From Thermoguttaceae bacterium (GTDB taxonomy: Bacteria; Planctomycetota; Planctomycetia; Pirellulales; Thermoguttaceae), in the NCBI GenBank assembly GCA_029975295.1, contig JARKPK010000127.1:1-64000 (forward strand): a stretch of 64,000 nt of DNA, in the 5' to 3' direction. Under the pieces are notes generated by a model that saw only the letters and a list, made by a program, of their open reading frames with translations, did no database searches and had not been told where the DNA came from. This document shows positions 31,580 through 52,806 of the stretch, piece by piece. The translations under genes and the position numbers were made by a program. Numbering within the stretch: position 1 is the first letter of the stretch; each line of letters starts with the position of its first letter.

Positions 31580-34024
31580 ATGAAAGCAATCGATTCCATG
31601 GACGGTTCCCGGTACTCTCTGATGGTCCGAGGCCTGCTTATCCTCGTTGTTTTGCCGGCACTTGCCGGGGTGTCTGCGCCCGCGGCGTTCGCCGGCGAGC
31701 CGCCGGCCGACCTGGCGCCCGAACAAGTCCGCAGCGCAATCGACTTTGGGATCAGCTATTTGACCAAGCGCCAGAAAGCGGACGGAAGCTGGCCCGACTA
31801 CGGCGGCATGGTCGGCGGAGGAATCGTATTCCCCGGCGGCTCGACGGCCTTGTGCTCGCTGGCCATGCTCAGCGCCGGTGTGCCGGCCGACGACCCGCGG
31901 ATGAAAGCCGCCCTGACTCGGCTGGAAAGCTACCGCCCGCAAACCACGTACGTCATCTCGCTGCAAACGCTCGTCTTCTGCCAAGCGAACCCGCGGCAAT
32001 ATCTGGCACGCATCCAGTCAAACGTTCACTGGCTGGAAGGCGCCCAGTTGGCCTCCGGCCCGAACAAGGGCGCTTGGTCGTATCGCTCTGGCGGCAACGA
32101 AGGCGGCGACAATTCCAATTCGCAGTTCGCGCTGCTGGCGTTGCACGAAGCCGAGCGCGCCGGCGCAACCGTAAAGCGCGAAACTTGGACGAACGCCAAA
32201 GCCTACTGGGAAGACGGCCAAAACCTCGACGGCTCGTGGGGATATCACAAACGCACGTTGGGGACGGGCAGCATGACCTGCGCCGGCATCGCCTCGCTGA
32301 TCATCACCAGCGACCGCTTTCGCCAGCCCAACGCCGAGGTGCAAGGCGACCAAGTCCTCTGTTGCCGGAAGGCGCCCGACGACGGCGAGAACCGCATCGA
32401 AAGCGGACTGGCCTGGCTGGGCCGCAACTTCCGCGTAACGGGCAACCCCGGCGCGCCGGGCAACATGTGGTTGCTCTATTATCTCTACGGCGTCGAACGC
32501 GTCGGCCGCATGACGAATCACCGCTATTTCTACGACGGCGACGGAACGCCGCGCGATTGGTATCGCGAGGGGGCGGCTCAACTCATCAGAATGCGCGGCG
32601 CGCTCGACACCACCTGGGTCGGCAGCGGGGCCGGCGAGCGCGATCCCGACATCAGCACGGCCTTCGCTCTGCTCTTTCTCTCGAAAGGCCGACGGCCGGT
32701 CCTCATGGCCAAGTTGCAATTCGGCCCGGCGGAAGATTGGAACCATCACCGCAGCGATGTCGATAATCTTACCCGCTACGCCGAAACCCAGTGGCGCCGC
32801 GACATGACTTGGCAGGTTGTCGAACTGCGGCGCGCGACGATCGAAGATCTGCTCCAGTCGCCGGTGCTTTATCTCTGCGGCAGCCTCAGTCCGTTGCCCG
32901 CCGAGAAAGTCGAACGCGAAAAGCTTGCGGGCAAGCTCCGCGGCTATCTCGACCGCGGCGGATTCGTCTTCGCCGAGGCCGATTGCAATTCGCCCGATTT
33001 CGACCGCGGGTTCCGCGAACTGATGACCCTGGCGTTTCCCGAGCCCGAGTATCAACTTGCTCTCCTACCTCCCGAGCATCCGATCTGGCGCGCCGAGCGG
33101 CCCGTGCCCCCGAACCACCTCAGACCGCTGTGGGGAATTGACTACGGATGCCGCACCAGCGTTGTTTACGGCGCGCCCGACCCGGCCCGCGCTCGGCCCA
33201 GCATGTCGTGTTTGTGGGAGTTGTCGCGTTCGGGCCGCGATGCCGCCTATTCGCGCAGCGTGCGCGATCAGATCGACGCGGCGCTGACCATCGGCATCAA
33301 TGTCCTGGCCTATGCCACCAATCGCGAGCTGAAAGGGAAAGAAGAGAACTTCCGCATCGCGGCCCCGCGTCCCAAGGCCGACCCCTCCCGTCGAAACACC
33401 ATCACCGTGGCCAAGCTGCGCCATCCCGGCGGATGCAACGCCGCGCCGCGGGCCGTGGTGAACCTGCTTGAGTTGGCCGGCTCGGGCGACGCGCCGCTGA
33501 ACACCGCCGCCGAATCGCGGCTGATTGACATCACCGATCCCAGCCTGTTCGAGCATCATTTGGTGTTCATGCACGGCCGAAGCGCGTTTCAACTGACCGA
33601 CGCCGAACGAAAGCAGCTCCGCCAGTACATCGAACGGGGCGGAATGCTGTTCGCCGACGCTATCTGCTCCAGCGGCGCGTTCATCGAAAGTTTTCGCCGC
33701 GAAATGTCGCTGATCTTCCCGGAACAGAAACTCGAGCGAATCCCGGCCAACGACGAAATGTTCAGCAACCGTTTCGGCGGCCACCAACTGAAAACCGTTC
33801 GGCGACGAGAGCCGCAGCGGCCCGACGGGACGGCATCGACCGTGCGCGAAGGGCCGCCGGAACTCGAAGGCATTCGCTTCGACGATCGTTGGGGCGTCAT
33901 CTTTTCGCAGTTCGACGTCAGTTGCGCGTTGGAGAAACGCCAAACCATGGAATGCCGCGGCTATCTCCCCGACGACGCCGCGCGCATCGGCCTGAACGTC
34001 CTCCTCTACTCTCTCCACCAATGA
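31580..34024 (+). CDS. exported prenyltransferase-fold protein with two DUF4159 domains
   Basis: The 814-residue protein has a signal peptide (hydrophobic to about residue 38, AFA-G). Residues 45-360 form an alpha/alpha-toroid like squalene cyclase/prenyltransferase repeats, with QW-like motifs QKADGSWPDY and QNLDGSWGYH, though no DxDD catalytic motif is visible. Two DUF4159 domains follow (about 372-590 and 610-760), each with the pattern LxxYLxRGGxxFADA and a Phe-Arg-Glu block near PE. DUF4159 proteins are abundant in planctomycetes and of unknown role. Its stop overlaps the ApbE ATG (ATGA), so the two are co-translated. The toroid is likely a binding scaffold, not an enzyme. Confidence 0.8.
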   Translation: MKAIDSMDGSRYSLMVRGLLILVVLPALAGVSAPAAFAGEPPADLAPEQVRSAIDFGISYLTKRQKADGSWPDYGGMVGGGIVFPGGSTALCSLAMLSAGVPADDPRMKAALTRLESYRPQTTYVISLQTLVFCQANPRQYLARIQSNVHWLEGAQLASGPNKGAWSYRSGGNEGGDNSNSQFALLALHEAERAGATVKRETWTNAKAYWEDGQNLDGSWGYHKRTLGTGSMTCAGIASLIITSDRFRQPNAEVQGDQVLCCRKAPDDGENRIESGLAWLGRNFRVTGNPGAPGNMWLLYYLYGVERVGRMTNHRYFYDGDGTPRDWYREGAAQLIRMRGALDTTWVGSGAGERDPDISTAFALLFLSKGRRPVLMAKLQFGPAEDWNHHRSDVDNLTRYAETQWRRDMTWQVVELRRATIEDLLQSPVLYLCGSLSPLPAEKVEREKLAGKLRGYLDRGGFVFAEADCNSPDFDRGFRELMTLAFPEPEYQLALLPPEHPIWRAERPVPPNHLRPLWGIDYGCRTSVVYGAPDPARARPSMSCLWELSRSGRDAAYSRSVRDQIDAALTIGINVLAYATNRELKGKEENFRIAAPRPKADPSRRNTITVAKLRHPGGCNAAPRAVVNLLELAGSGDAPLNTAAESRLIDITDPSLFEHHLVFMHGRSAFQLTDAERKQLRQYIERGGMLFADAICSSGAFIESFRREMSLIFPEQKLERIPANDEMFSNRFGGHQLKTVRRREPQRPDGTASTVREGPPELEGIRFDDRWGVIFSQFDVSCALEKRQTMECRGYLPDDAARIGLNVLLYSLHQ

Positions 34025-36296: not shown

Positions 36297-36800
36297 GACA
36301 GTTCCAGCACCTTTCGGTCACTCGCGCTCCACGCGAGCAAGAAATCCGGCTGCCGTATCCCGCGACGCACTGGCACGGAGGGGCCAACTGGGCTATTCTG
36401 CAATCGGGCGAAATGCCCGCAAAAGCGATGCATTCACCCCATTCCACACATTCCTCCCAAGCATCCAAGAGCGTGGGCCGATGATCTTGGCGAACTTGCC
36501 GAATGTGGAATCTGGAGAACTTTTTTCGCATTCCTTGCGTCGTAAAGTGGGGTAGCGACCGCTTTGCGCCCAACTGAGCTTGTCCAGCACCCACCGCATG
36601 GGTGAGCCGGGGCAACGAGCGTGTAGTGTGGGCCGAGAAGTGACGGAACCGTTGCCTTCGTCTTCGAGTTCCCGGCAGTTGTCTGTCGCGCAAGGCACCA
36701 ATAGAAACACAACGCCTGCGGGCCCCTGCGTCGTGGGGTTCACGGAGCGACACAAACAGATCTCAGAAACGGCGGAATCTATCTCGAGAAAGGTGCTGCC
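36297..36800. other. intergenic region upstream of the giant envelope genes
   Basis: About 500 bases that should hold the promoter for the 36801 gene. Only a small hairpin (CACCC-ACCGCAT-GGGTG) near 36586 is visible; no clear promoter, RNA or gene. GAGAAAGG lies 8-15 bases before the next ATG. Confidence 0.4.
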
Positions 36801-39800
36801 ATGAATGGTCAGAGTTCCGGCTCTCGTCACGACACGGGAGGAGCTTGCGTTGGTTGGCGGACAACGATTTGCTCGCGCCTGGCTTCGTCGCGCCTGCCGG
36901 CTTTTCTCGGCCTGGCCCTGTTGCTGTGGCCCGCGGCAGCGAAATCGGCCGACGAGCCTTCATTGCCGGCCGTTGCCGAGCCCACTGCGGCGGCTCCCGA
37001 CCGCGAGACCGGCGCCGCGGCCGGCGATCCGGCCAAGCCGGTTCGCGAGCAAAGCATCTATATTCCCTACGAGAAGCTCCGTCACGTGTTTGAGAAGCAG
37101 GGACGAGGGGTGTTTTTGCCCTACGAGGAATTCGAGGCGCTTTGGAAGGCCGCCCGCCAGCGCGATCCGGCGACGGCCGAGGTCAAGCCGCCGGTGGGCG
37201 CGTTGATCGTCGAAAGCGAAAACGAGGCCGTGGCCGAGAAGGATGTGGTTCGCGTCAAGTGCCGCCTGAAGATCGAGGTTCTTTCGCAGGGCTGGGTCGA
37301 GGTTCCCCTGCGGTTGTCCGACGCGGCGATCGCCAAGGCCGTCGTTGACGGAACACCCGCTCGTCTGCTGGGCGAGCCGGGCCAAGACCACCGCCTTCTG
37401 ATCGAAAACCCGACGAAGAAGCCGAAGACCGTGACCCTCGATCTGGAGTACGCCAAGACGATCACTCGAGCGCCCGGGCAGAACAGCGTTTCGTTCCAAA
37501 CGCCGCAGTCGCCCGTCAGCCGCTGGCAGATCACCGTGCCGCAAGCCGGCGTGAACGTCAACGTTCAACCGTTGCTGGCCGCAACTGAAGTGCCCAAGGC
37601 CGCCCCCGCCCCAGGCGGCGCCGACGCCGAACGGACGACGATCATGGCCTTCGTGGGAGCGGCCCCCTCGGTCCGAATCGATTGGACGCCCAAGGCGGAG
37701 GGCGCCGCCGGTTTGGCGGCCCTGGCCAGCGTTCAGGCCGAGCAACATTCGGCCGTCGCCGAAGGAGTGGTCCGCACGCGAGCCGTTCTGACCTATGCGA
37801 TCAGCCGGGCCGAGATGTCGGAATTGGTGGTCGAGGCGCCTGCCGATCAGAAGATCGTCAGCGTCTTCGACGACAACGTGCGGCAATGGACGGCCGTTGA
37901 GGCCGAGGGCAAACAGAAAATCACAGTTCAGTTGTTCGAGCCGGCCAAAAGCTCACAACGATTGACGATTGAGATGGAGAAGTTCTTCGACGACGCGGCC
38001 GCCACGACGATCGAGACTCCGATGATTCGCGCCGTCGGAGTCGGCCGGCAGCAAGGCGTGGTGGCCGTCAGCGTTGCGGCCGGCCTGCGGGCCGACGCCG
38101 CGAAGTCGACCGGACTGTTGCAGATCGATCAAGCCGAATTGCCGGCGGCGCTTCGCGGGGCGCAAACGGCGTTGGCCTATCGCTACGCGGCGGTGCCATA
38201 TTCGCTGACCTTCGACGTCGAGAAAGTCCAACCGCGTCTTCTGGCCGACACGCTGACCGAAGTCCATCTCAGCGCCGAACGGCTCGCGCTCGACATTACC
38301 GCCGCGGTCACCGTAGAACGAAGCGGCGTGTTCCGATTGGAGTTCGACATACCCGAGGGGTACCAGTTGCGCCGCGTCGTCGGCCGATCGCTGCCCGCCG
38401 GAAAAGACGGCGAAGTGCCCGCCGCGTCGCCGGCGCAAATCGACAACCACCACCTTGAAGGCGAAAAGAAGACGCGTTTGGTGGTCAATTTGAGCAAGAA
38501 GGCCCTCGGACGGGTCGCCCTGCTTTGCGAGTTGCAGCAAGACCTCGCGCAGCGCGAGTTGCTCGCACAGCCGGGCAAAAAGGTTGCTTTGCCCTTAACC
38601 GCGCCCCGCGCCGCCGGAGCCGCCCTCGAACGCAACCGGGGTCGGTTGGTGATCTTCGCCCCGGAAAGCCTGCGGGTCGATGTCGAGAAGGCCCTGGGCT
38701 TGGGCGAAATGCGGTTGGATGAGGTGTACGACGGTTTCGCCACTGCGCGCGAAGTGAAACCCGGCGACAGCCGCCCGCTTTCGGCATGGTCGTTTGCCGA
38801 GGAGGCCGCCAGCCTGACCATTCAGGCCGAACGGCGTCAACCGAAAGTTACCGTGCAGCAACTGCTGGCCGTGCGCATTGAAAGCGGCGTCGCCCGATTC
38901 GAGTGCTCATTGAACTACGACGTTCAGTACAGCGGCGTGAAGTCGCTGCGGCTGGACCTGCCCGCCGCCATCGCCGCCAAAGTGCGCAACGAAACGCCGA
39001 CGATCCCGGAAAAACCGATCGATCCCCAGCCCGACGACGTGGCCAAGGGCGATGTCGCGTGGAATCTGACGGGCGAGAACGAGTTGTTCGGCCGCGGCGC
39101 CGTCCGATTGGTTTGGGACGAACCGTTGGAAAAGTTGCAGGTGGGCAAAAGCGTTGTGCTTTCGATCCCCCATCTGAAACCCCGCGGCGTGGACCGCGCT
39201 TGGGGACAAATCGTCCTCTCCAAGGCCGAGTCGCTCGATGTCAGCGCCCCGTCCGACACCCCGGGTTTGCGCGCGATCGATCCGCAGGTCGATTTGAACC
39301 CGCCGGCGCCACAGGCCGCCCGGGCCTTCGAGTTCCATGATTCGTGGTCGCTCAACGTCACGGTCACTCAGTTCGAGTTGGAAGAGATCAAACGGACCAG
39401 TGTCGAGCGCGGCGTGGTGCGGGCCGTGCTCACTCCGGCCGGAGAGGTCTCAATGCAAGCGATCTACCGCATTCGAAGCGCGCGCCAGCGGCTCGAGATC
39501 AAATTGCCAGAGAACGCCGGTTTTGCGGCCGCGCCGTTGCGCATCAACGGCAAGGCGGTCGTGCTGGAACGAGGCGTGCCGGGCCAATACTTCGCGCCGC
39601 TCACCGGCGCCGAACCGGATACGCCGATGCTTGTCGAACTGCGGTACACCACCCCCGACGGCGGCCGACGGCTGACTATTCCGGAGTTTCCCGAAGAACC
39701 GGCCGTGATGAAGGTGTTCTTATGCGTTTATCTGCCGCCGGATCAGGCATTGTTGGGCTCGCGCGGGAAATGGTCGGGCGAGTTCGGCTGGTGGCTCGAC

Positions 39801-40394
39801 CCGGCCGGCGTGTGGCGGCCGCAGGTTCACACCACAGTGGGCGACAGCGATCAGAAGCTGCTCCAATGGGTGAGCGACGGTCTGGAATCCGGACCGATCG
39901 GCGACTTCCAAACCGACGGCACGCTGTTCGTCTTCTCCACGTTGGCGCCGGCGCCCTCGCCGGAAGGCGATCTCCACCTGAGCATGCTTCGCCGCGAGTT
40001 GTTGCGGGCGGCCGTGTTTCTCATCGCCATCGGCTGCGGCGTACTGCTGCTGCCGGCGCCGTGGAGCCGCCGCGCCGCGGCCCTAGGCGCAGCCGTGGTG
40101 CTGATTGTGCTGGGCGGAGTGTTCCTGCCGACGTTCTCGCTGCAAGTGCTCGACGGGGTGTTCTTCTCGGCCGCCATGGTGGTTGCCGTGCTTTGGCTGG
40201 TATGGCACTTCGTCCGCATGCCGCGGCGCCCGGTGATCGCCGCTGTGGGCGCGCCGGCAACGGCGGCCTCCGCCCCGGCCAAACCATTGGGCGGGGCGCC
40301 GGCGGGAATCGACTTGACCAGACAACCCGCCGGCGAATCTGCCGAAGAGCCGACGCCGAAAACGGACTCCGACGGAGGCAAGAGCCATGAATAA
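36801..40394 (+). CDS. giant exported membrane protein, PY-module family, copy 1 (1197 aa)
   Basis: I do not recognise a named family. A signal segment at about residues 30-48 precedes a Pro/Ala-rich stretch. The start of the module follows: IYIPYEKLRHVFEKQ at about 86 and FLPYEEFEALW about 20 residues on. A long beta-rich region covers about 130-1060 and holds the segment KIEVLSQGWVEVPLRLSD. About three membrane helices (1067-1135) and a short Pro-rich cytosolic tail end the protein. The same module order occurs twice in the next gene, which starts 8 bases before this stop (ATGAATAA overlap). The bulk would sit outside the inner membrane with a C-terminal anchor. No enzyme motif or regular sequence repeat is visible. 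Confidence 0.8.
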   Translation: MNGQSSGSRHDTGGACVGWRTTICSRLASSRLPAFLGLALLLWPAAAKSADEPSLPAVAEPTAAAPDRETGAAAGDPAKPVREQSIYIPYEKLRHVFEKQGRGVFLPYEEFEALWKAARQRDPATAEVKPPVGALIVESENEAVAEKDVVRVKCRLKIEVLSQGWVEVPLRLSDAAIAKAVVDGTPARLLGEPGQDHRLLIENPTKKPKTVTLDLEYAKTITRAPGQNSVSFQTPQSPVSRWQITVPQAGVNVNVQPLLAATEVPKAAPAPGGADAERTTIMAFVGAAPSVRIDWTPKAEGAAGLAALASVQAEQHSAVAEGVVRTRAVLTYAISRAEMSELVVEAPADQKIVSVFDDNVRQWTAVEAEGKQKITVQLFEPAKSSQRLTIEMEKFFDDAAATTIETPMIRAVGVGRQQGVVAVSVAAGLRADAAKSTGLLQIDQAELPAALRGAQTALAYRYAAVPYSLTFDVEKVQPRLLADTLTEVHLSAERLALDITAAVTVERSGVFRLEFDIPEGYQLRRVVGRSLPAGKDGEVPAASPAQIDNHHLEGEKKTRLVVNLSKKALGRVALLCELQQDLAQRELLAQPGKKVALPLTAPRAAGAALERNRGRLVIFAPESLRVDVEKALGLGEMRLDEVYDGFATAREVKPGDSRPLSAWSFAEEAASLTIQAERRQPKVTVQQLLAVRIESGVARFECSLNYDVQYSGVKSLRLDLPAAIAAKVRNETPTIPEKPIDPQPDDVAKGDVAWNLTGENELFGRGAVRLVWDEPLEKLQVGKSVVLSIPHLKPRGVDRAWGQIVLSKAESLDVSAPSDTPGLRAIDPQVDLNPPAPQAARAFEFHDSWSLNVTVTQFELEEIKRTSVERGVVRAVLTPAGEVSMQAIYRIRSARQRLEIKLPENAGFAAAPLRINGKAVVLERGVPGQYFAPLTGAEPDTPMLVELRYTTPDGGRRLTIPEFPEEPAVMKVFLCVYLPPDQALLGSRGKWSGEFGWWLDPAGVWRPQVHTTVGDSDQKLLQWVSDGLESGPIGDFQTDGTLFVFSTLAPAPSPEGDLHLSMLRRELLRAAVFLIAIGCGVLLLPAPWSRRAAALGAAVVLIVLGGVFLPTFSLQVLDGVFFSAAMVVAVLWLVWHFVRMPRRPVIAAVGAPATAASAPAKPLGGAPAGIDLTRQPAGESAEEPTPKTDSDGGKSHE

Positions 40395-43300
40395 GATTTG
40401 TCAACGCACCCACCTCCGCTCAAGGGTCATGATCGGTTGCGCTGTCGCGTTGTCGGCCGCCCTGTTGGCGCCCTTGACACCGGCCGCTGCCCAGGCGCCG
40501 GCCGTTGCTCAGGCGCCAGCGCCGCCAGTCAATGCGGAGAAGCCGCGCCGCGAGTTGTACGTTCCCTATGCCGATCTTCACATTCTGCTCGAGAACCAAC
40601 CGCGCCGCGTCATGCTGCCCCGCAAGCAGTTCGACGAACTGCTGCAACAGGCCGAGCAAGCCGCCAAATCGCGAGCGCCGCACAGCGTTCTGCCCTTGGC
40701 CGCCGAATACGATGGGAAGATCGAAGATCAGCGGGCTTCGATCCGCGCCAAGCTGACGATCGACGCTCTGCACGAAGGATTGCAGGTGGTTCCGCTCGAT
40801 CTGGGCGAAGTCGGCGTTGTCTCGGCAACCATCGACGGCCGACCGGCCGCACTGGGGCGATTGCCCGACGGTCGCGTCGCCGCCGTAGTCGAGGGACCGA
40901 AGCGGCGCGTCTTGGAGCTTGAGCTGGTTTCCTCGTTCGAGATCACCTCGGCTCATCAGGTGTTGCAGCTTCGACTGCCGCGGCCGCCGGCGGCCCGCAT
41001 GCAGTTGGTCGTGCCCGGCGACGTCGAGTTGAAAAGCGGCGCGGCCGTTCTCAGCCGCCAAGTGCAAGCCGATCCGCGGCAAACCCGGTTCGAACTCATT
41101 CCGGCCTCGGCCGACTGCACGCTGGTGTTCACGCTCAACAGCCACCTGAAGCAGACCGAATCGGTGCTGACGGCCAGCGGCGTGTACCTGCACGAAGTGA
41201 CGCAGGGCTACGAACGGATTCACGCCACCGTTTCGTTCCAAGTTCTCTATCGGGCGGTCGATCAACTCCGGTTGGTCGTTCCCGCTGGTTTTGAAGTACA
41301 AGAGGCGTCAACACCGTTGTTGGCCCGATGGGAGGTTGTGGCGGATCGGGGCCGGTCGATGCTGGTTGTGCGGCTGCGCGAGCAGACCACCGAACCGATC
41401 GTGCTGAATGTGACCGCCGTGCGCACCCCGGCGGTGTTTAACGAATGGACCGCATCGCGATGGGAACCGCTCGACGTGGCGGCGCACGTCGCCGTGGTCG
41501 GCTTGCTGTTGGAAGACCGCGTTGCCGCCGTTCGCCTGGAAACCGCCGGCCTCACGCCGATCGATGTCGAATCCTTGCAAGTCGCCTTGCCGGCCAGCTT
41601 GTTGCGCCCGGCCCCCGGCATGCCGCTGCTGCGGCCTGTGGCGGCATGGTATGCCGCCCCGGCAGCCTATCGCCTGGCCGGCCGATTCGAAAAACCGGCC
41701 GGCAAGATCGCCGCGAAGACGAATGTCCTCTTGGTCCTCGATGAATCGCGGCAGGAGGCTATCGGCGGCTTCACCGTGGTTCCGCGGCACGAGCGGCTCT
41801 TTGCCATCGATTTTTCATCGCCTTCGGGCTGGACGGTCGAATCGGTCACCGGCCCCGACGAGCAGCCGCTGGCCTTCGAACGCTATGACGCGGCCGAGGG
41901 GGCGGGGCGGATTCATGTGCGATTGCCCTCCGGCGTCGCTCCCGACACGGCCTACACGTTGCACTTCCGAGCCACGAGCGTGCCCGCCGGCTGGCTCCAG
42001 CCTTGGGACCAACGTACAGTGGCCTTTCCGCGTTTTGCCATTGTCGAGCCGCACGCCGCCGAGCGAACCGCGGCGATCGACGATGTCGGCGCCATCGCTG
42101 TCGAGCCGCGAGGCGATTTGGTGATTCGCCCCGAAAAACTGGACAAACTGCTTCCGCTCGACCAAGCCGAGCGAGCTCAATACGGGCTGGGCGAGGTGGG
42201 CGAAGGCCCCGCCTATCGCTACGACAACGCTGTTTATCAGGCGGAGTTCGCGGTCACCCGAGCTCAGCCCCGCGCAGTTGCTCGAACCATCGCCTTCTAC
42301 AACGTCAAACCGAGAGTGTTGACCTTCCACGGCGAACTGATCTACACCATAGAAGAAGCCCGCACACGGCGATTGCGATTTGCGCTGCCCCAAGACACGC
42401 CCACGCTCTTGTCGGTTAGCGGACAGGACGGCGTGGAGATCGAAGAATTTTATAGCCGCGACGGCGAGAACAACCGCGAGTGGACGGTTCTCCTCAAGCA
42501 GCCGCGCCGCGGCGTCGTGCGATTGGCGATCGACTTCGACCGGCCGATCGCAGAAGAAGCGGATTCTCTGGCGCTTCCCAAGTTGTCGGCGTTGGATGTA
42601 GCGTACCAGTCGGGCCTCACGGCCATCGAGGCCGATCCTCTCCTCCGCGTGGCTGTGAAAACCGAAGCCCGCACGGTCGATGTGGGCGAGTTGTCCGAAG
42701 CCGAGTACCAACCCGGCCGCCGGCTGCTGGGCGCGTACGGGTTCAGCGGCGCAGCCCCCGAATTCCAACTGTCGCTGGCCCGCGACCCGGCCTTGCCCAT
42801 TCCCGAAGCGCTCGTGGGCAAAGCCCTCCTGATCACGCAGCTTTCGGCTGAGGGCGAAGCCCAGAACGAAGCTGTTTTTTCGCTGCACGCCAAAGTGTTG
42901 TCGGTCGAGATCGAGCTGCCCGGGCAAGCCGACTTTTGGGCGGCCACGGTCGACGACGAGCCGATCAAGCCGCAACGGCTTGGCGCGAGGGTTCTGCTCG
43001 ATTTGCCCGGGGCGCGTCGGCCGACCCGCGAACTTCGGGTGGTTTACGCCGCTCGGGTCAACCCCGTCGCGATGCGCGGCACCGTGGACTTGCCCGCCCC
43101 GCGGCTATTCTGCGGTCTGACGCGCGCCGCGGCGGGCCCTGCCGACAAGGCGCCCGCCGGAGAACAGGTGCGCGCACGCGAGGTTCCGCTCAATCAACTC
43201 GTTTGGCAAGTGCGATTGCCCGCTCAGTACCGCCTGAGCGGCTATCACGGCACGCTAACCGCGCTCGATATCGATCGGCCGCGTCCCGCTGCCATCGGTT

Positions 43301-46300
43301 TGGCCGAAGCCATCTGGTTCTTGGGCGGCGGAGTCGGATCGGGTCTGTACGCCCCGGCCTCGCGGGCCGCCCGCGAATCTGCCAGCGTCGCATCGCGGCG
43401 CGGCGCTTGGGGCAAGCATGCCCCGGTGGCCAGTCGAGAATTGGAGGAATCCTTCCGATTCGACGATTCACGAAGCGCCCTTGAGCCCGACGGCCGCGAA
43501 ATGGGCGACACGAAAGCCGAAGGTGGAGCAATGGCCGACACTCCGGCTGCTGAGCCGGCCCAACCGATGGCTCCGCCCGCGATGAAGCCGGCCAACGGCA
43601 TGATCGTTAGCGATTTGGAGATTGCCGAGAAGGCCAAGGAACTGCGCGACGCGAGCACGCCAACGGCATCGCCGGCGCCGCGGCCCACACGACCTGCGGA
43701 TTCGTTGCGATCCGATCACGATCTCGACAAGGCCATGGCGGATGCGAAGTCGCAGGCCGTGGAGGAACCCAAACCGGCGACCCGCCAGAGCGGCATGAAT
43801 GGCGAATCGCTCGATCGGCGACGGAAGGATTCGCTGCAAGGCATTCGAAGTCTGCGCATTCAACTGGCACAGGCCGGCGGCGAACAGTCGCAGATCGAGT
43901 TCCGCAGCTTGGGCGGCAACCCGCAACTCGACTTGGTGCTGAGCAACAGCGAACGCTTCTCCTTCCTGGGCTGGGGCCTCTTCGGCGCTGCCGTACTGTG
44001 GGGGCTCTGCCGCATTCAGCGTCCAGCGCGCAGCAAAACCATGTTCGTCTTCGGCTTGGCAGTCGCCACTACGATCGTGGCCGTGCTGGTGCGCGATGTC
44101 GCGATCGTGGAACTGGCGAATTTTGTGTTTCACGCCTCATGGACGCTGGCCCTGCTTTATATCGCCATTGGCGCGGCGTTATGGCTGGGACGCAAGCTGA
44201 TCGGCCTATGGCAAAAGCTCTTTCGGCAAGCCGGCGAGGCGGCGCCCGTTGGAGCAACGCCGGCGGCTTCGACCGTCTCGGCCGTAATGACGGCAGTCGT
44301 CGTTGCCTGGGCGTTGCAGGCCCGGGCGGCCGACGACCACGCGCCGCCCCCGCCCGTGGCCGTGCCCGACGATGTGATCATCGTACCCTACGAACCCAAA
44401 GACGATACCGCACCGGCGGTGGGCGACAAAGTATTGGTTCCCTATGCCGAGTACGAGCGTTTGCGAAACCAAGTACTGGCCAATCAACGGGCGACCGAGA
44501 AGAAACCACCGCTTCCCTACGCCTTTGCCGGCGGAGAGTATCGGGCCACGCTCGGCACGGACGAGCACCTGACGTTCCAAGGCCGCTTCACCGTCGAACT
44601 CTATACGGACCAACTGACTGAAATTCCGCTGTCGCTCTCCGGCGGCGTGTTGGCCGTCGCCCAAGCCGATGGCAAGCCCGCTCGCATTCGAATGGTCGAA
44701 CCGCGATCGGCCGAAGCCGTTCCGATAACGGCGAACCAACCGAATCAGCCGGCGGCCCAGCAATCGATGCCGCAGCAGGCTGTCGTCCCGCAAGCGGCAA
44801 ACGCGCGGCCGGCGCCGGCCGCGCCGATCGTCGTGCTGTATCTCAGCGGGAAGGGCAAGCATGAGCTGTCGATGGAAATTCGCATGAAAACCGCGAGGCA
44901 AGGCGGTTGGCGGTCGATCGAGGGCGTTGTTCCCTCGGCGCCGGCCACCTCGCTGGCGCTCAGCGTGCCCAAGTCGGGTACGGAGCTGCGGCTGGGCCAT
45001 GTCAGCGATCGCCGCAACTACGAAGTTGATCGCGACAACTACACGCTGGTGACTGCCGTGGGCGCCGATGGCGCGGTGAAGATCGCTTGGCGTCCCAAGG
45101 TGGCCGAAGCCCAAGTGGACCGAAGCCTGACAGTCGAATCGACTTCGGTTCTCGACGTCGAGCAGGAAGGCGCTCGGCTGACCTGCCGCGTTTCGCTCCA
45201 ATTCCGCCGCGGGCGGCGCGACCGTTTCGAGTTGCTCGTTCCGAAAGACTACCTGATCGAGTCGGTCCGAGGCCCCAATGTTCGCGGCTGGCGGCTGGGC
45301 GCCCAAGGAGACGCGGCGGGCGATCGGGCGGACGCCAAGACAGCGGTCCGACCCGTCGAAATCGAGTTGCTCAAGCCTGCCGAAGACTCGGAGGAAATAA
45401 CCGTCGTGTTGTGGAAGGCCGCGGCAGGACCCGGCGGCCAAGCCATGGAATGGGCCGTGCCCTATGTCGTCGTTCCCGAGGCGGCGTTGCACGGCGGCAC
45501 GGTCAGCATTCGCCGCAGCCCTTGGCTCGACTTACGGACTACGGCCAAAAGCGGCGTCACTCGCACCGATGCCGACCCGAAAACCGCCGAGCTGGCCGGC
45601 GATGCGGTGCGGCAGCGTCCGTGGGCGTTGCGGCCGTACGAGGCGTATCGATTCGTCGGCGTGCCGTTCGACCTGAAACTTACGGCCGCGCCGATCACGG
45701 CCGAATACTCCGCCACGGTTCAATCGCTGGTGAAGATTGCGGCGTTCCAACGGACTTTGGAATCGCGAATTGAAATCACGCCCAAGGGACGCCCCCTGTA
45801 CGTCGCTGAGATTCTTCTTCCCGAAGGCTTCGTTCTCGACGAACTGCGTGCGCCGGGCGTGAGCCATTGGTCGATCGCGGCCGATGGCCCGCGGCCTCGG
45901 TTGTCCGTTTTTTACGCCCAGGGAAGCGATGCGCCGCAGGCGATTGTTGTTCAAGGCACATTGGCGCGCGAGACTCCGCCGCCCGAGTTGCCGCTGCCGC
46001 AAATCGAGGTCGTCGCGGTGGCCCGCCAGCAAGGCGAAATCGTCATCCAGGCGGATCCGGCCTACGGGATTGACGCTGTCGATCTCCAGCAAGCCGAGGT
46101 TCGCCCGCTGGCCCGCGCCGCCGGTTGGCTCAAACCGCAACAGATGGCCATGGCGCGGCTGAACATCAGCTACCAAAACGCCGCTTATCGCGGCAAGTTG
46201 CGGCTGACGGCGCGAACCCCATCGGTATCGTGCGAAACCATCTCCAATGTTCGGATCACCGGGCGGGCAATCGAAGAAACCATTTTGCTCGATTACAGCA

Positions 46301-48510
46301 TTCAACAGGCCGGCATCCGTCAGGTGAAGTTTCAGCTTCCGCCGCAAGCGGCCGGGTGCCGAGTGCGCGCCCCGATGATTCGCCAGAAGAAAATCACGGG
46401 CGAGCCCGGACAACCGATCGACGTTGAGATCGAGTTCCAGGAAGAAATCATGGGCCGACTGCTGGTGATCGTCGAGAACGATCGGCTGCTCGAGCCGTCG
46501 GCCGTTCACTCGGCGCCCATTCCGCGGGTGGAAAACGCCCGAGTCGTTCGACAATATGTCACCCTAGAGGCTTCCGGGCGTGACGAAGTCGAAGAAGTCG
46601 GGCCGCTCAAAGGGGCCGAGCGGCTCAGCCGCAACCTCGCGGAATACCGATTGCTGGCCGCCCGTTTGCCCGGCCGATTGGATCAGGCCTATTTGATTCG
46701 CGGCGACTCGCCCGACGCACAACTCCGTTTTCGCACCAAAAAGCGCGAAGCCGTGCAAACCGCCGGCGCGCGGATACTGTTGGCCGAGACGTTGTTGATG
46801 ATGGATGCCGCCGGGGCCTATCGCGCGCGGCAGTCGTACCGCATCGACAATCAAACCGAGCCGTACCTCGATGTGGACCTGCCCGAGGGCGCCGTGCTGT
46901 GGACCGCTGCGGTGGCCGGCGAGCCGGTCAAGCCGTCGCGCGGCCCATCCGACGCTCCGTCGCGGCGCGCCCGGGTGCCGCTGGTGAAGACGGCCGCCGG
47001 CGATCTCGATTATCAGGTGGTGTTCACCTACGGCGGCCAAATGCCGGCGATCAGCGGCATTGCGCCGATCAACTTCCCGCTGATGCGGGCCGTAGGCCTT
47101 AAGCCCGAATCGAGCGTGGTGCAGCTCTGCGTGCCCAAGCAGTTCCGTTGGCTCCGCTTTTCCGGCACCATGCGGCAAATCGAAAGCGAGAGGCAACTCG
47201 CTGGAGAGTACGAGAACTACTACGCCAAACAATTGGAAAACCTGAAGCAATCGCTCGCCAGCGGCGACTCTTATTCGCGGGTCCGAGCGGCCAATTCGTT
47301 GCAATTGTGGCAGATGCAGGTCGCATCCGGTGCGCAACCGGGTGCAGCCGGACAAAGCGCGGCGCTGCAAGAACAGCTCCGCGAATACATCGACGGCACG
47401 TCGCAAATCGTCGCCCTCGATGACGTTGATGCGATGGCCCGCAACGACAACCGGCTGCAATTGAACAACTCGTTCGCCGAGCAGCGCAACGACCGAGCCA
47501 AGAATGTGGTGCAAGGCGTCGGCTCGAATTGGGATGTCGCCCCGACAACGCCGCAATCCCCCGGTTCCGGCAGCAAAAGCAATTTCAACGCCGGTTGGTT
47601 CGAAACGAACAAGCTGGCGCAGGCCGTGCCGCCAAGCGACGCTCCGGGCGAGGGCAACTATCGTCCGTCGAGCGGTGAGGGGGCGGCGAAGGCGCCTGCT
47701 CAGGCCGGCGGCCAAGTTCTTTGGGGCGGCAAAGGCGAAGGCAGAGGCAGAGGCGAAGAATTCAAGAACCCCGAGGTCGCTCAGGGCCGCGCCAAAAAGC
47801 GGTTGGCCGAGATCCAACAAGAACAGCAAATGGATCTGAGCAACGTTCAGCAACCTCAGTCGCGGGCCGCCGACGAGCAGAACCTTCAGCGCTACAACGA
47901 GCGCCTCCAAAAAGACCAAGGCCGGCAGATCGCCCAACAAATGGCCGACTTCGGCATCAATGCCGCTCCGAGCAACCAACCGCTCGGGCCGCCGGGCGGA
48001 ATGCCCATGGGCGGCGGAGTCGGCGGCTTTGGGCGCGACGTGGCGAAGGAACCCGCAACGGAATCGGAAGAAGCGTCGGTGCTGACGGTTTCCCACGCGA
48101 CGGGCGATGCGCTCGGCCTGGCCAGCTTGGAATTGGCCATGCCCGAGATCGACCCGAATCGCTACGACGTGTTCCGCTTCACCACCCCGCTGGGGCAAAC
48201 CGAACTGACCGGCTGGGCCGTGTCGCGCGAATGGACCCGAACGGGCAGCCACCTCGGCCTGACGGCGATGGTCGCGCTGCTCGCTTGGCTCGCCATCAGT
48301 CTGGTGCTCGGCGGGGCAGGGCGATGGATCGTCAGCCCGGCCGGCGAAACGGCGATGATCGTCGCCGGTTTGGTCATGCTGATTTTCGGCCTGCTGCCGG
48401 TCGCCGGCGTGCTGATGATGGTGGTCGGCGCCGTCCGAAAGCTGGCCCGAGCCATTCGTCGCTGGTTCTCAAGACGCAATACGCCGGTCGAGGCGGAAGT
48501 GGTGCTGTAA
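40387..48510 (+). CDS. giant exported membrane protein, PY-module family, tandem fusion (2707 aa)
   Basis: No named family is recognised. Unit 1 has a signal peptide (about 15-35, AAA-Q), the module start ELYVPYADLHILLE (residues 56-69) with VMLPRKQFDELL, a long beta-rich ectodomain, and membrane helices at about 1191-1209, 1219-1236 and 1250-1268. A fourth hydrophobic segment (about 1299-1312) ends ARA-ADD like a signal peptide. Unit 2 then repeats the module (IIVPYEP at 1331, VLVPYAEYERL at 1349) and an ectodomain. A Gln/Asn/Gly-rich linker (about 2280-2560) and C-terminal helices (2625-2643, 2656-2680) follow. It overlaps the previous gene by 8 bases. Role unknown; probably envelope structure or surface sensing. 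Confidence 0.8.
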   Translation: MNKICQRTHLRSRVMIGCAVALSAALLAPLTPAAAQAPAVAQAPAPPVNAEKPRRELYVPYADLHILLENQPRRVMLPRKQFDELLQQAEQAAKSRAPHSVLPLAAEYDGKIEDQRASIRAKLTIDALHEGLQVVPLDLGEVGVVSATIDGRPAALGRLPDGRVAAVVEGPKRRVLELELVSSFEITSAHQVLQLRLPRPPAARMQLVVPGDVELKSGAAVLSRQVQADPRQTRFELIPASADCTLVFTLNSHLKQTESVLTASGVYLHEVTQGYERIHATVSFQVLYRAVDQLRLVVPAGFEVQEASTPLLARWEVVADRGRSMLVVRLREQTTEPIVLNVTAVRTPAVFNEWTASRWEPLDVAAHVAVVGLLLEDRVAAVRLETAGLTPIDVESLQVALPASLLRPAPGMPLLRPVAAWYAAPAAYRLAGRFEKPAGKIAAKTNVLLVLDESRQEAIGGFTVVPRHERLFAIDFSSPSGWTVESVTGPDEQPLAFERYDAAEGAGRIHVRLPSGVAPDTAYTLHFRATSVPAGWLQPWDQRTVAFPRFAIVEPHAAERTAAIDDVGAIAVEPRGDLVIRPEKLDKLLPLDQAERAQYGLGEVGEGPAYRYDNAVYQAEFAVTRAQPRAVARTIAFYNVKPRVLTFHGELIYTIEEARTRRLRFALPQDTPTLLSVSGQDGVEIEEFYSRDGENNREWTVLLKQPRRGVVRLAIDFDRPIAEEADSLALPKLSALDVAYQSGLTAIEADPLLRVAVKTEARTVDVGELSEAEYQPGRRLLGAYGFSGAAPEFQLSLARDPALPIPEALVGKALLITQLSAEGEAQNEAVFSLHAKVLSVEIELPGQADFWAATVDDEPIKPQRLGARVLLDLPGARRPTRELRVVYAARVNPVAMRGTVDLPAPRLFCGLTRAAAGPADKAPAGEQVRAREVPLNQLVWQVRLPAQYRLSGYHGTLTALDIDRPRPAAIGLAEAIWFLGGGVGSGLYAPASRAARESASVASRRGAWGKHAPVASRELEESFRFDDSRSALEPDGREMGDTKAEGGAMADTPAAEPAQPMAPPAMKPANGMIVSDLEIAEKAKELRDASTPTASPAPRPTRPADSLRSDHDLDKAMADAKSQAVEEPKPATRQSGMNGESLDRRRKDSLQGIRSLRIQLAQAGGEQSQIEFRSLGGNPQLDLVLSNSERFSFLGWGLFGAAVLWGLCRIQRPARSKTMFVFGLAVATTIVAVLVRDVAIVELANFVFHASWTLALLYIAIGAALWLGRKLIGLWQKLFRQAGEAAPVGATPAASTVSAVMTAVVVAWALQARAADDHAPPPPVAVPDDVIIVPYEPKDDTAPAVGDKVLVPYAEYERLRNQVLANQRATEKKPPLPYAFAGGEYRATLGTDEHLTFQGRFTVELYTDQLTEIPLSLSGGVLAVAQADGKPARIRMVEPRSAEAVPITANQPNQPAAQQSMPQQAVVPQAANARPAPAAPIVVLYLSGKGKHELSMEIRMKTARQGGWRSIEGVVPSAPATSLALSVPKSGTELRLGHVSDRRNYEVDRDNYTLVTAVGADGAVKIAWRPKVAEAQVDRSLTVESTSVLDVEQEGARLTCRVSLQFRRGRRDRFELLVPKDYLIESVRGPNVRGWRLGAQGDAAGDRADAKTAVRPVEIELLKPAEDSEEITVVLWKAAAGPGGQAMEWAVPYVVVPEAALHGGTVSIRRSPWLDLRTTAKSGVTRTDADPKTAELAGDAVRQRPWALRPYEAYRFVGVPFDLKLTAAPITAEYSATVQSLVKIAAFQRTLESRIEITPKGRPLYVAEILLPEGFVLDELRAPGVSHWSIAADGPRPRLSVFYAQGSDAPQAIVVQGTLARETPPPELPLPQIEVVAVARQQGEIVIQADPAYGIDAVDLQQAEVRPLARAAGWLKPQQMAMARLNISYQNAAYRGKLRLTARTPSVSCETISNVRITGRAIEETILLDYSIQQAGIRQVKFQLPPQAAGCRVRAPMIRQKKITGEPGQPIDVEIEFQEEIMGRLLVIVENDRLLEPSAVHSAPIPRVENARVVRQYVTLEASGRDEVEEVGPLKGAERLSRNLAEYRLLAARLPGRLDQAYLIRGDSPDAQLRFRTKKREAVQTAGARILLAETLLMMDAAGAYRARQSYRIDNQTEPYLDVDLPEGAVLWTAAVAGEPVKPSRGPSDAPSRRARVPLVKTAAGDLDYQVVFTYGGQMPAISGIAPINFPLMRAVGLKPESSVVQLCVPKQFRWLRFSGTMRQIESERQLAGEYENYYAKQLENLKQSLASGDSYSRVRAANSLQLWQMQVASGAQPGAAGQSAALQEQLREYIDGTSQIVALDDVDAMARNDNRLQLNNSFAEQRNDRAKNVVQGVGSNWDVAPTTPQSPGSGSKSNFNAGWFETNKLAQAVPPSDAPGEGNYRPSSGEGAAKAPAQAGGQVLWGGKGEGRGRGEEFKNPEVAQGRAKKRLAEIQQEQQMDLSNVQQPQSRAADEQNLQRYNERLQKDQGRQIAQQMADFGINAAPSNQPLGPPGGMPMGGGVGGFGRDVAKEPATESEEASVLTVSHATGDALGLASLELAMPEIDPNRYDVFRFTTPLGQTELTGWAVSREWTRTGSHLGLTAMVALLAWLAISLVLGGAGRWIVSPAGETAMIVAGLVMLIFGLLPVAGVLMMVVGAVRKLARAIRRWFSRRNTPVEAEVVL

Positions 48511-48610: not shown

Positions 48611-49396
48611 TCAACCGGCGAACAGTCCGCGCAAGGGCTCCAGACAATCACAATCGAAGACGTACTTCAGCGCGAAATGCGCGCCGATGACGATGAACAC
48701 CCATCCGGTAGCCTGCCGGGCGCCCCACTCGATCTTGCCCAAGGCGTTGTAAGCCTTCCCTACCGACTGGGCGCTATAAGCCAAGAGAAGCGCAACCAGA
48801 ATCACGGGGGTTGCCGTGCCCAAACCATAAACGCTGGGCAACACAACCGTGCTTGCCGGCAGCGCGGCCTCCGGAAGACTAATGCCCACCTTGGTCAACA
48901 CGGTGGTGATCGCGCCCGCCTCGGCGCCCATCATCAGGGTAATCAATCCGAAGAACCAAGCGGCCGATGTCGGACAGAACGACAGCGCGAACAGCGCCCC
49001 CAGCACGAGCGATCCCCAAACGCCCATAGCGTCGATCCGCTTCTGAATGCCCTCGGAAATCATCGATCCGCCGATGCTGATCTGGATCAGCCCCACCAAG
49101 AACATCCCCACCACCAAAAACAGCGGTGCCAGCACAATGTGCATCGACGACTGCAAGAACCGTGAAACGGCCGGAATCGATGCGGCCGTCATCACCAAAA
49201 ACACCGCCAAGCCGACATAAACCGCGCACCGCCCAACCGTGTAAAGCAATCCCGCGCCGATCACCGCCCGCGGGCTGCCCACCTTCCGCCCCACGTAGGA
49301 AACGGCCGCGATGTTCGTGGCCAAAGGGCATGGGCTAATCGAGGTCAACAGCCCCAGATACAGCGAAGCAAGAATATACAGAACGTAAGCGGCCAT
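48611..49396 (-). CDS. CcdA/DsbD-type membrane protein, ArsG-like
   Basis: The 261-residue protein has about six to seven helices of the DsbD/CcdA transmembrane fold. Two cysteines each precede proline, Cys23 in ISPCPLATN and Cys141 in SFCPTSAAW, matching the redox pair that passes electrons across the membrane in CcdA/DsbD. The SPCPLATN form is that of the group annotated as ArsG, described as an efflux permease for reduced aromatic arsenicals. So it is either an exporter or a thiol-electron conduit. It is last in the arsR-led unit, 250 bases after the second CxxC protein. The cysteines after the last helix (DCDC) are unusual. Confidence 0.78.
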   Translation of the reverse strand: MAAYVLYILASLYLGLLTSISPCPLATNIAAVSYVGRKVGSPRAVIGAGLLYTVGRCAVYVGLAVFLVMTAASIPAVSRFLQSSMHIVLAPLFLVVGMFLVGLIQISIGGSMISEGIQKRIDAMGVWGSLVLGALFALSFCPTSAAWFFGLITLMMGAEAGAITTVLTKVGISLPEAALPASTVVLPSVYGLGTATPVILVALLLAYSAQSVGKAYNALGKIEWGARQATGWVFIVIGAHFALKYVFDCDCLEPLRGLFAG

Positions 49397-49648
49397 CGTC
49401 GGGCGCCCTCTTGGCAGCTTCCAACGCCCGTTCTTTGTTGGAACATCGGTTCACCGCGCACTTTCATTGCGGCAGCACGCGACGATTCCCTCGCTGGAAC
49501 GAGCGCGTTGAAGCAATCCGTTGAATTGATCCCTCTCGCACATCCGCCCAGAATCACGCACAGTCGAAAGCCGCGCATCTTTGCACAATCGATCCATGCG
49601 GTTCTGTTTCGCGACACAATCCGTTACGAAGCGACGATTCGAGCCGGC

Positions 49649-50068
49649 CTATTTTAGCAACTCGCGGACGTTGCTTTGCACGTAGTCGAAAAAGGATTGC
49701 TTGTCGCGCACCTTCACCCAAATCTCCGTGAGTTTTCGCACTTCGGCTGCCTTATTCCCGTTTACGCGAACCACGACCAACGTGGGGCCTTCAACCTTGT
49801 AGCCTTTGGCTAGGGCATCGTTGGCCGGGTTCTGAAAATCCACATCGTGCAGTTCGACTTTGCCGCTTTTCATCTCTTCGGCAAAGCCTGTGCGCACGGC
49901 CTCTTGCGCGTAGCCGCCCATCTTCTGGCAGGTGGGGCAGCGCACCGTACGGTGGAAATACATAACCACCACACGGTCCGACGGCGGCTCGGCCGCTTGC
50001 AAAGTCGCCGTGTCAGCAAACGATAGGGCCGCAACAACCAAGAGAACACCAGCGTTGAACAATCGCAT
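49649..50068 (-). CDS. small exported CxxC thioredoxin-fold protein, ArsF-like
   Basis: The 139-residue protein has a signal peptide (residues 1-27, TLQAA) and then MYFHRTVRCPTCQK with Cys44 and Cys47. The short Trx-like domain fits the group annotated as ArsF (nitrophenyl-compound reduction subunit in arsEFG-type clusters). GGAGAG 7 bases before ATG 50068 decides the start over the ATGs at 50083 and 50086. The paralogue lies directly upstream and shares the YFHxxxRCPxC core, so the two may work as a pair like ArsE and ArsF. Likely periplasmic reductase or thiol carrier. Confidence 0.75.
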   Translation of the reverse strand: MRLFNAGVLLVVAALSFADTATLQAAEPPSDRVVVMYFHRTVRCPTCQKMGGYAQEAVRTGFAEEMKSGKVELHDVDFQNPANDALAKGYKVEGPTLVVVRVNGNKAAEVRKLTEIWVKVRDKQSFFDYVQSNVRELLK

Positions 50069-50125
50069 CGCTTTTCTCTCCATCATCTTCAGGACCTATT
50101 GAAAATCACCGATCGACGACAACCC

Positions 50126-50830
50126 TCACTCGGAAATAGGAATACGAGGCAACGGCGCGCCGGCCGGCGGATCTTCTTCAGGAATCGGTATGCCGGCCGG
50201 GGCGCGAAGCGGACTGGACGGGCTTGTCTGTGCGGGGCCCGGGGCCGAAACAGCGTCCGAATGGGCGTGGGGAGCCGCGCGATCGCCTGCGGTCGAAGCG
50301 AGCATGTCGCTGATTTCTTGTCTTACGAATGCAGCGAACTTCGGCGGATCGTCGTACAGGCCCCACACCTCGTCAAGCCGCTTCCAACGCTCGATTCGCC
50401 CCTGATTCATCTTCGCCAACACCACAACCGCCATCTGCACATCGAACATCTTGGCCATCGCTGCGGCGCCGGGCTTTTCATAATTGATCACCTCCCACGC
50501 GATTTTGCCATCGGCCAAAGGGCCGGCAAAGTCCTTCCGCACGACATCGTAGGCCTGCGACTCGATCGCCCGGCACGAAGGGCAACGCTGCTTTCCGTGA
50601 AAGTAATACACGATCAGCCCGTCGCTGAGTTCCGTCTGCGAAGCAGTATCGCCCTGAACCGCCAGTCCGCCGCCCTGCTTGCGAATCGCTTCGAGTTCCG
50701 CGGCGATCTTGACCAAACTGGGCTCGAGTTGCGAAGCGGCGTGCAAGTCAAGCGTTCGAGCGATCAAAACCACGATCGTCGCCGAAAACAGCGAGATCAG
50801 ACAGACCGCTACGGCATTCTTCAAATCCAT
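50126..50830 (-). CDS. membrane-anchored CxxC thioredoxin-fold protein, ArsF-like
   Basis: The 234-residue protein has one N-terminal helix (about 7-25) that is signal or anchor, then a short coiled segment, and the core YYFHGKQRCPSCRAIE with Cys83 and Cys86. After the Trx-like domain, which ends near residue 180, a Pro/Ala/Ser-rich tail of about 50 residues follows; this tail is absent from the smaller paralogue next door. GGGAAGGGAA lies upstream of the ATG. The active site faces the periplasm if the helix anchors it. Its partner genes (ArsG-like, cytochrome-like) suggest a role in reduction of an arsenic compound or of disulfides. Confidence 0.75.
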   Translation of the reverse strand: MDLKNAVAVCLISLFSATIVVLIARTLDLHAASQLEPSLVKIAAELEAIRKQGGGLAVQGDTASQTELSDGLIVYYFHGKQRCPSCRAIESQAYDVVRKDFAGPLADGKIAWEVINYEKPGAAAMAKMFDVQMAVVVLAKMNQGRIERWKRLDEVWGLYDDPPKFAAFVRQEISDMLASTAGDRAAPHAHSDAVSAPGPAQTSPSSPLRAPAGIPIPEEDPPAGAPLPRIPISE

Positions 50831-50896
50831 GATGTGAGTTCCCTTCCCTGCCCCGGCGCAAATCGTTGTCGAGCGATGATCGCGGACCGGCCGATG

Positions 50897-51292
50897 CTAC
50901 TCGGCCGCCAACAACGCCTTGCCCTGGGCAACCACAGTCGAAACCGCCTGTTGGCTGACGGTCGTTTTGCCTTTCTCGAAACCCAAGTCGCTCAGCCGGA
51001 TGTACGCGAATTGTTGGAAACCGGCGTTTTCGAGAGTCTTCTTGGCGCAATCGAGCGGGCAACCGTCGATAGCCAGGATAGCCTGGGCCGAACGTGTGGT
51101 TTCGACGATCCCGCTCACTCGGCCGCCGATGCCCGCCAGGCAGAACATTCGGCCGACGCCTTCGGCGGAAAGCTCCCGTGCAGCCAGGTCGGCCAACTTG
51201 CCCACATCCGCTGCGCCCGAGCAAGCAAAGACCAACTTCGGCGCGCTGCCGCACTGACACGAAACAGGCGAACCCATGCCTTGACTATCCAT
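50897..51292 (-). CDS. putative zinc-binding protein with DGC motif
   Basis: The 131-residue cytosolic protein carries six well-placed cysteines: C12-Q-C14, Cys24 in VFACSGAAD, Cys51, and the IDGCPLDC pair (Cys78, Cys82) that names the DGC family. These are annotated as putative zinc-binding proteins and recur beside thiol-redox and arsenic genes. GGGAGG 9 bases upstream picks ATG 51292 over ATG 51301 and ATG 51340. It may bind metal or metalloid through thiolates; the enzymatic role is unknown. It sits between the di-heme protein and the CxxC pair in one presumed transcript. Confidence 0.75.
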   Translation of the reverse strand: MDSQGMGSPVSCQCGSAPKLVFACSGAADVGKLADLAARELSAEGVGRMFCLAGIGGRVSGIVETTRSAQAILAIDGCPLDCAKKTLENAGFQQFAYIRLSDLGFEKGKTTVSQQAVSTVVAQGKALLAAE

Positions 51293-51394
51293 TGGCCACA
51301 TCCTCCCATTGTGCGTTGCTCTAGCCGTTGATTCGGCCATTGCGCCCGCCGTTGATTCGGCCGTTGAACGCAGGCAACTACGGCCGCCGAATCG

Positions 51395-52228
51395 CTACGG
51401 CTTCGGGTGTTTCTTATCGCCAAACTGATGACAAGTGGAGCATTGCATCTTGCCCATCGCGTCGGCCAATTCTTTCGGCCCATGACAATCGATGCACGCC
51501 TTGACCTCTGCCCGGACCGGAGCGAATTCGCATTTCGGATCGACGCAGCGGCGATTGAGCAACTCGACGACCTTCGCCGCCCCGTCGGCCGCCAACCGCC
51601 GGCAGCGTTCCTTCTTCTCAACGCTGAAGGCCTCGTTGCCCGACGCCTTGCTCCACTTCGCCACCGAAAAATGGCAAAGCACCGACCCGGCGACGCTCGG
51701 CACGGCCTCGGGCGCCCATTCGGGCTTCTCCGGCACGAAGGCGGGCAAGCTGGTGGTTTCGTACCACACGCACATCTCCGTGATCATCGCCTCGCGGACT
51801 TCTTTCGCTTTTTCGTGGCGGAACAATCCGATCAAGGCGGCCGCGCCGTTCACCACACCGCATAGGCTGCCAAACCCGCCCACGCCCCCTTCGCCGTATC
51901 TCATCATTTCCACCGGGAACGATCGGAACGGTGCGCCGTATCGTTCGGTCAACTGGCCCACAACGCTGCCGACCACCGCATACATGCAGCCGCCGTCGGG
52001 ATAGATGCGGTAGGCCGCTTTCGCCACCTCCTCCGGCTCTAGAGGCCGGTATTCCCAAGATGCCGCCGTCAACTCGTTGCCATTGCCAGCCGCCTTGTCT
52101 GTCGGCTTGTCGATCGCCAAGGCCACCGCAGGCAGTGTGGACGGTCGCCCGCAGCCGCCGAGCACGCCTGCGCCAAGCCCGGTGCCGATCACGGCCGTCC
52201 ACTGCCGACGCGACCATTCCCGTGCCAT
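51395..52228 (-). CDS. C-GCAxxG-C-C / split-Soret-like di-heme protein, exported
   Basis: The 277-residue protein begins with a Tat-like signal (SRRQWTAVIGTG) ending at Gly-Gly-Cys, so it may be a lipoprotein. The C-GCAxxG-C-C family core follows: DGGCMYAVVGSV, GFGSLCGVVNGAAALIGL and LCHFSVAKW. Two c-type heme motifs lie near the C-terminus, CIDCH and CSTCH, as in split-Soret cytochrome c precursors. It is therefore a periplasmic redox protein with cysteine and heme centres. ATG 52228 is chosen over a TTG at 52246. It links the cytosolic Trx and DGC genes to exported CxxC proteins in the cluster, fitting electron delivery to or from them. The electron partner is not shown. Confidence 0.8.
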   Translation of the reverse strand: MAREWSRRQWTAVIGTGLGAGVLGGCGRPSTLPAVALAIDKPTDKAAGNGNELTAASWEYRPLEPEEVAKAAYRIYPDGGCMYAVVGSVVGQLTERYGAPFRSFPVEMMRYGEGGVGGFGSLCGVVNGAAALIGLFRHEKAKEVREAMITEMCVWYETTSLPAFVPEKPEWAPEAVPSVAGSVLCHFSVAKWSKASGNEAFSVEKKERCRRLAADGAAKVVELLNRRCVDPKCEFAPVRAEVKACIDCHGPKELADAMGKMQCSTCHQFGDKKHPKP

Positions 52229-52423
52229 TCTTGCACCATTCAACAATCAGCTTGGAACCCGAATGAACGCACAACACCGCAACCGTCCGCCGGTCGAAAT
52301 CGGCACGCAACCACCGGCCGTGCAAGCGTTCCCGCTCCCCAACGATGTGCATGCAGCTTGTTGCCCATAGCAAATCAGGCAGCGGAGGCTGCATATTCAT
52401 CGCCAGCAACGGAACTCAAGCAA

Positions 52424-52657: not shown

Positions 52658-52806
52658 CAGTCGCTCCTTCCTTATCACACCATCGAGCACCAGTTTTCCT
52701 TCAAACTCATTTCGGCTCTTGGCGGCCGGGCCGTTCGAAAATCGCTTTTCGCCATACCGCGGAATCCGCCGCCCACCGACCACGTTGCACGCATTATGGC
52801 GAGTTC

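Follow-up and report, generated by a model that had tools for sequence, protein, structure and literature searches.

The present analysis shows that the two overlapping giant genes at positions 36801 to 48510 of the window (the whole stretch of DNA analysed, 64,000 nucleotides of a Thermoguttaceae bacterium contig) encode three homologous units, here called A, B and C, the last two fused in one protein. In the reading that we hold with moderate confidence, the pair is an envelope scaffold controlled by an ECF (stress-type) sigma factor and probably partnered with an anti-sigma sensor that carries a VWA domain. For one large unannotated protein family of planctomycetes and their relatives, bacteria with a disputed envelope biology, this provides both a fold and an evolutionary history, along with a promoter, a candidate regulator and several genes that may be co-regulated.

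The layout of the pair is given below, with the membrane topology predicted from hydropathy and AlphaFold.

36801..40394, plus strand: ORF1, 1197 residues, with an N-terminal hydrophobic export segment, unit A and three C-terminal membrane helices.
37056..37145, plus strand: conserved tandem [IVL]P[YF]xx[LF] motif, IYIPYEKLRHVFEKQGRGVFLPYEEFEALW (IYIPYEKL...GVFLPYEEF), of low model confidence.
39993..40217, plus strand: the three C-terminal membrane helices of unit A (hydropathy and AlphaFold model).
40387..48510, plus strand: ORF2, 2707 residues, with a signal peptide, unit B, helices, an internal signal-peptide-like segment, unit C and helices.
40387..40394, plus strand: overlap of the ORF1 stop and the ORF2 start, 8 bases, ATGAATAA.
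40528..43386, plus strand: unit B ectodomain, residues 48-1000 of ORF2 (profile-profile comparison).
44035..44202, plus strand: membrane helices between B and C.
44260..44331, plus strand: hydrophobic signal-peptide-like segment AVVVAWALQARAAD inside the B-C fusion.
44329..47376, plus strand: unit C, residues 1315-2330 of ORF2, with the five-domain layout of unit A (profiles and model).
48247..48456, plus strand: C-terminal membrane helices of unit C.

Both reading frames, with their lengths and the 8-base overlap ATGAATAA at 40387-40394, are as the first-pass annotation had described them, and the C-terminal membrane helices that it proposed are found as three after A, a cluster between B and C, and two to three after C. 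The signal-peptide-like segment AVVVAWALQARAAD just ahead of unit C is what would be expected if ORF2 consists of two former genes that have become fused.

The relation between the units is confirmed by sequence comparison. Within its own genome, ORF1 finds ORF2 twice, with E values of 3e-15 (unit B) and 6e-7 (unit C), and the profile-profile comparisons all give a probability of 100, with E values of 3.9e-65 for A/B, 2.4e-68 for A/C and 1.1e-66 for B/C (853-862 columns across the three). A, B and C are thus three homologous units of about 950 residues, similar far beyond chance, and the proposal of one module occurring three times in two giant proteins is borne out at E values of the order of 1e-65 or better over some 855 columns. 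The start motif named in the same proposal is real as well: it belongs to the best conserved parts of unit A, and FE[KS]xGRGVF and LPYxxFxxLW were picked as patterns by the search tool. Since the tandem motif is well conserved and yet modelled with low confidence, it is probably a binding segment. Searches of both proteins against Pfam, NCBIfam and PDB sequences gave no match, in line with the earlier statement that no named family is recognised, and a search for viral relatives of the giant proteins found none.

Two of the units were modelled with AlphaFold, unit A from 58 sequences (mean pLDDT 88.5) and unit C from 48 (83.6), and both are predicted to be chains of beta-sandwich domains, five per unit. 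The domains of unit A, with boundaries taken from the structure models, are the following.

37191..37703, plus strand: domain 1, an M1-aminopeptidase N-terminal-like beta sandwich (Z 13.8, rmsd 3.2, 158 residues, to 4gaa_A).
37707..38231, plus strand: domain 2, a repeat of domains 3 and 4 (hhalign E 1.5e-19 and 8.8e-22).
38232..38750, plus strand: domain 3, repeat (profile comparison).
38757..39380, plus strand: domain 4, repeat (profile comparison).
39381..39845, plus strand: domain 5, best match domain 5 of unit C, E 4e-18 (profile comparison).

Domains 2, 3 and 4 are repeats of one another (E 1e-7 to 1e-22 in profile comparison), while domains 1 and 5 show only a weak relation, both with these repeats and between themselves (A1/A5, E 4e-5). 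Every domain of A pairs with the domain of C in the same position, with E values of 4e-18 to 1e-25, which indicates that the five-domain unit predates the triplication. In unit C, two stretches match the M1-aminopeptidase N-terminal fold with Z of about 11. The fold shared by A and C, the two units modelled, agrees with the module proposed earlier, and together with the homology and the helices it supports a duplicated, exported and membrane-anchored envelope system.

As modelled, the units, which we refer to as rods, have no catalytic site, and their domains show a fold relationship with the N-terminal domain found in M1 aminopeptidases. In LTA4H, PepN and ERAP1 this domain shares its fold, over nearly its whole length, with domain 1 of both modelled units; unlike these enzymes, the rods have no catalytic domain and are arrays, with five domains in every unit and fifteen in the pair as a whole. 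The HEXXH zinc-binding catalytic motif is absent from both the ORF1 and the ORF2 protein, and searches of Pfam with E values up to 10 connect the rods with no M1 family. Among multi-domain structural matches the best are Ost1 and ribophorin I (8b6l_O, E 4.5e-10), which likewise have a membrane anchor bearing M1-N-like luminal domains in tandem. Ost1 possesses a pair of similar, beta-rich domains in the lumen (PMC7226087), and its alignments span 57-402 of the A model and 262-630 of the C model, i.e., two tandem M1-N-like domains. This resemblance raises the possibility that the rods assist a membrane enzyme as an accessory subunit, in the manner of Ost1/ribophorin I, and hold the proteins on which a glycosyl- or other transferase acts. 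We regard such a role as very improbable, given that no transferase gene is conserved beside the rods and that the match is one of fold, at 8-12% identity. Ost1 and ribophorin I have two domains and one helix, as compared with five and three here, and searches of PDB and Pfam reveal no sequence relation between them and the rods.

Two further comparisons concern large or serially built proteins. The leg of the integrin alpha chain is also a series of beta sandwiches and is found by Foldseek with E of 1e-9 to 1e-10, but the TM-scores are about 0.15 and there is no sequence relation; the resemblance is likely a generic one. The membrane-coat-like proteins of PVC bacteria are large membrane-linked proteins of the same superphylum (PMC2799638); those, however, combine a beta-propeller with an alpha-solenoid, neither of which occurs in the A and C models, which are strand-rich up to the C-terminal helices.

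The family is widespread. BLAST gives matches in 25 of 60 relatives, and profile search finds the family in 99 of 294 Planctomycetota genomes. A second phylum, entered via a relative labelled Verrucomicrobia, carries it in 34 of 194 genomes, and the suggestion that the system is peculiar to planctomycetes therefore fails. Presence beyond PVC bacteria was checked via two peptide patterns alone, across 84,980 species. The arrangement of the units varies: in some loci (L090/L160 and L100) they are three consecutive genes with B and C separate, and in others (L095 and L097) two units lie within one protein of about 2200 residues. In a FastTree phylogeny of 84 units from 28 loci, the long branches of which leave the inner order unsure, the units group by position and not by genome, with three changes (the minimum being two) as against 40 with shuffled labels, and the triplication is accordingly ancient. 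The genome of the window has a second, divergent A and B-C pair (L087 5071-15692, contig C82), which belongs to a subgroup elsewhere preceded by an inositol monophosphatase gene. Records labelled Lentisphaeria, Kiritimatiellia and Victivallales (L119, L124, L151) were not counted as wider spread, because all three of their units nest inside a Pirellulales-type clade; judged by this placement, they are probably mis-labelled or mis-binned.

In many divergent relatives, the units come after an ECF sigma gene and the gene of an anti-sigma partner. In three loci (L101/L172, L095 and L097), Pfam identifies an ECF sigma factor and a VWA/YfbK_C protein upstream of the units, with zf-HC2 detected in the latter in two of them. 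A scan of the phylum with a VWA alignment has among its top matches 15 genomes (G191, G321, G176, G255, G206, G136, G338, G234, G292, G123, G096, G173, G138, G265 and G076) in which a unit match follows directly on the end of the VWA gene; the unit matches came from a separate profile search, and ten of the genomes are independent, the other five having supplied the alignment. By six-frame search, a sigma gene lies directly upstream of the units in all 11 genomes with sequence to search, seven of which had gone into the sigma profile and four of which had not. In the second phylum, a VWA gene is found within about 3 kb upstream and on the same strand in 18 of the 32 family-bearing genomes tested, all loci with this partner being of the two-unit kind. 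In several loci the sigma gene and that of its partner share a few bases, and in several deep ones the scaffold, sigma and anti-sigma genes form one overlapping operon.

The partner protein has one hydrophobic helix between its anti-sigma region and the VWA domain, near residue 100-120, the start being clear in six of the eight proteins checked and the other two being truncated. A single helix ahead of the VWA domain suggests that the VWA/YfbK domain is probably extracytoplasmic. The DxSGS metal-site (MIDAS) motif is invariant in the partner VWA domains. Sigma regions 2 and 4, a zf-HC2 region, one helix, an AAC/CGT promoter and apparent autoregulation are shared with ECF sigma factors that have a transmembrane anti-sigma; what differs is that the extracytoplasmic part is here VWA/YfbK_C, in an operon with giant rods in the relatives. 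The first-pass annotation is supported in part: its envelope module stands, while the ECF sigma/anti-sigma-VWA context, the ECF-type promoter described below and the M1-N fold had been missed.

On the basis of these arrangements we propose that three paralogous, exported rods, A and B fused to C, would be anchored in the inner membrane and form a non-catalytic scaffold in the periplasm that binds proteins. The state of the rods would be read by the anti-sigma protein through its extracytoplasmic VWA domain, perhaps at the conserved DxSGS metal site, and a disturbance would free the ECF sigma factor, such that more scaffold is transcribed. In the lineage of the window, the sigma, VIT-VWA and scaffold genes lie scattered, yet share one promoter. 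A bolder version, which we consider unlikely, is a PVC-wide trans-envelope machine, loosely integrin-like, where the metal-site VWA domain of the anti-sigma protein binds the rods and turns their mechanical or occupancy state into release of the ECF sigma factor.

An ECF-type promoter lies 259 bases before the start codon of ORF1 and is the sole exact match in the 64 kb.

36517..36541, plus strand: ECF-type promoter GAACTT-N15-CGTC.

Such AAC (-35) and CGT (-10) boxes are a hallmark of promoters read by ECF sigma factors (PMC8103513). In 69 loci searched upstream of unit A, the spacing of 15 gives 12 exact matches and every other spacing from 8 to 24 gives none or one, and upstream of 317 other (control) genes in the same loci the motif does not occur (0/317). 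The sequence flanking the motif is otherwise unalignable (median identity 0.5), and hence shared descent of the region does not by itself explain why the motif is kept. As the exact promoter is present in only 12 of the 69 loci, other lineages use another promoter or none. Genome-wide there are 26 matches versus 12 in the reversed control, meaning that about half of them may be real and half are expected by chance; in one relative the reversed control exceeds the motif matches. A looser pattern, GAAC-N15-19-CGT[CT], occurs at about twice expectation (48 vs 20.2) and was not relied on.

Among the genes behind the motif in the genome of the window is an ECF sigma gene (L233 10784-11399, contig C152); the motif stands 46 bases ahead of its start, and a zf-HC2 membrane protein follows. 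From its promoter and neighbour, this gene is a candidate regulator of the pair. Also behind the motif are genes for an exported VIT-VWA protein, a PQQ_2 protein and a protein with alpha-2-macroglobulin domains (L235 3453-9000, contig C114). In another genus (G025) the motif stands ahead of the orthologue of the sigma gene (64% identical), and a third (G026) has it ahead of unit A as well as of the VIT-VWA orthologue (59%).

These candidate targets bear on two other explanations. The rods could be pure output, a structural or adhesive layer switched on by the ECF sigma factor with no part in sensing, the VWA protein sensing something else. That the other candidate targets are also large exported proteins would fit such a bulk envelope response, which we rate as possible though rather doubtful, because the overlapping operons of scaffold, sigma and anti-sigma genes in several deep loci are a closer association than that of an ordinary target. 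Alternatively, the rods could guard the surface against foreign or misplaced proteases, alongside serpin, VIT-VWA and alpha-2-macroglobulin proteins whose genes have the same type of promoter. The alpha-2-macroglobulin domains of the C114 target, the occurrence of the motif at VIT-VWA orthologues of two genera, and a serpin-like reading frame, recognised by eye only, after one motif match (L260) point in this direction; however, no inhibitor or bait region is found in the rods and several of these motif matches may be chance, and we find this role improbable. The sensing scaffold remains our preferred reading. The promoter together with the sigma/anti-sigma pair makes the function directly testable, and in this way a giant protein family that had no name can be linked to an envelope-signalling system open to experiment.

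No description of these proteins or of the sigma/VWA/rod operon was found in the curated families or the literature searched, which is weak evidence of novelty as subscription journals are thinly covered. ECF control and the M1-N fold are already known kinds; their combination and size are new.

Within the window, the neighbours of the pair are EamA, ApbE, DUF4159 and a minus-strand gene, with neither a sigma nor a VWA gene at its side. In this lineage, too, the pair has no adjacent VWA anti-sigma gene, and the best VWA matches in the window's own genome are weak. A conserved neighbouring enzyme was sought and none was found, the inositol monophosphatase preceding the pair in one subgroup only. 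The DUF4159 protein (31580-34024) lies about three kilobases upstream of the pair and is followed by the ApbE gene. Downstream, at 48611-54171, a gene group resembling an arsenic or metal/thiol cluster encodes an ArsP_1 permease, a Thioredoxin_3 protein and, judged by eye, a CcdA-like membrane protein, and a Wzy_C O-antigen-ligase-like membrane protein is present at 58963-61512. Elsewhere in the same genome (L185 3734-10230, contig C127), an ECF sigma and VWA gene pair is followed by a 1034-residue frame, possibly a sister system.
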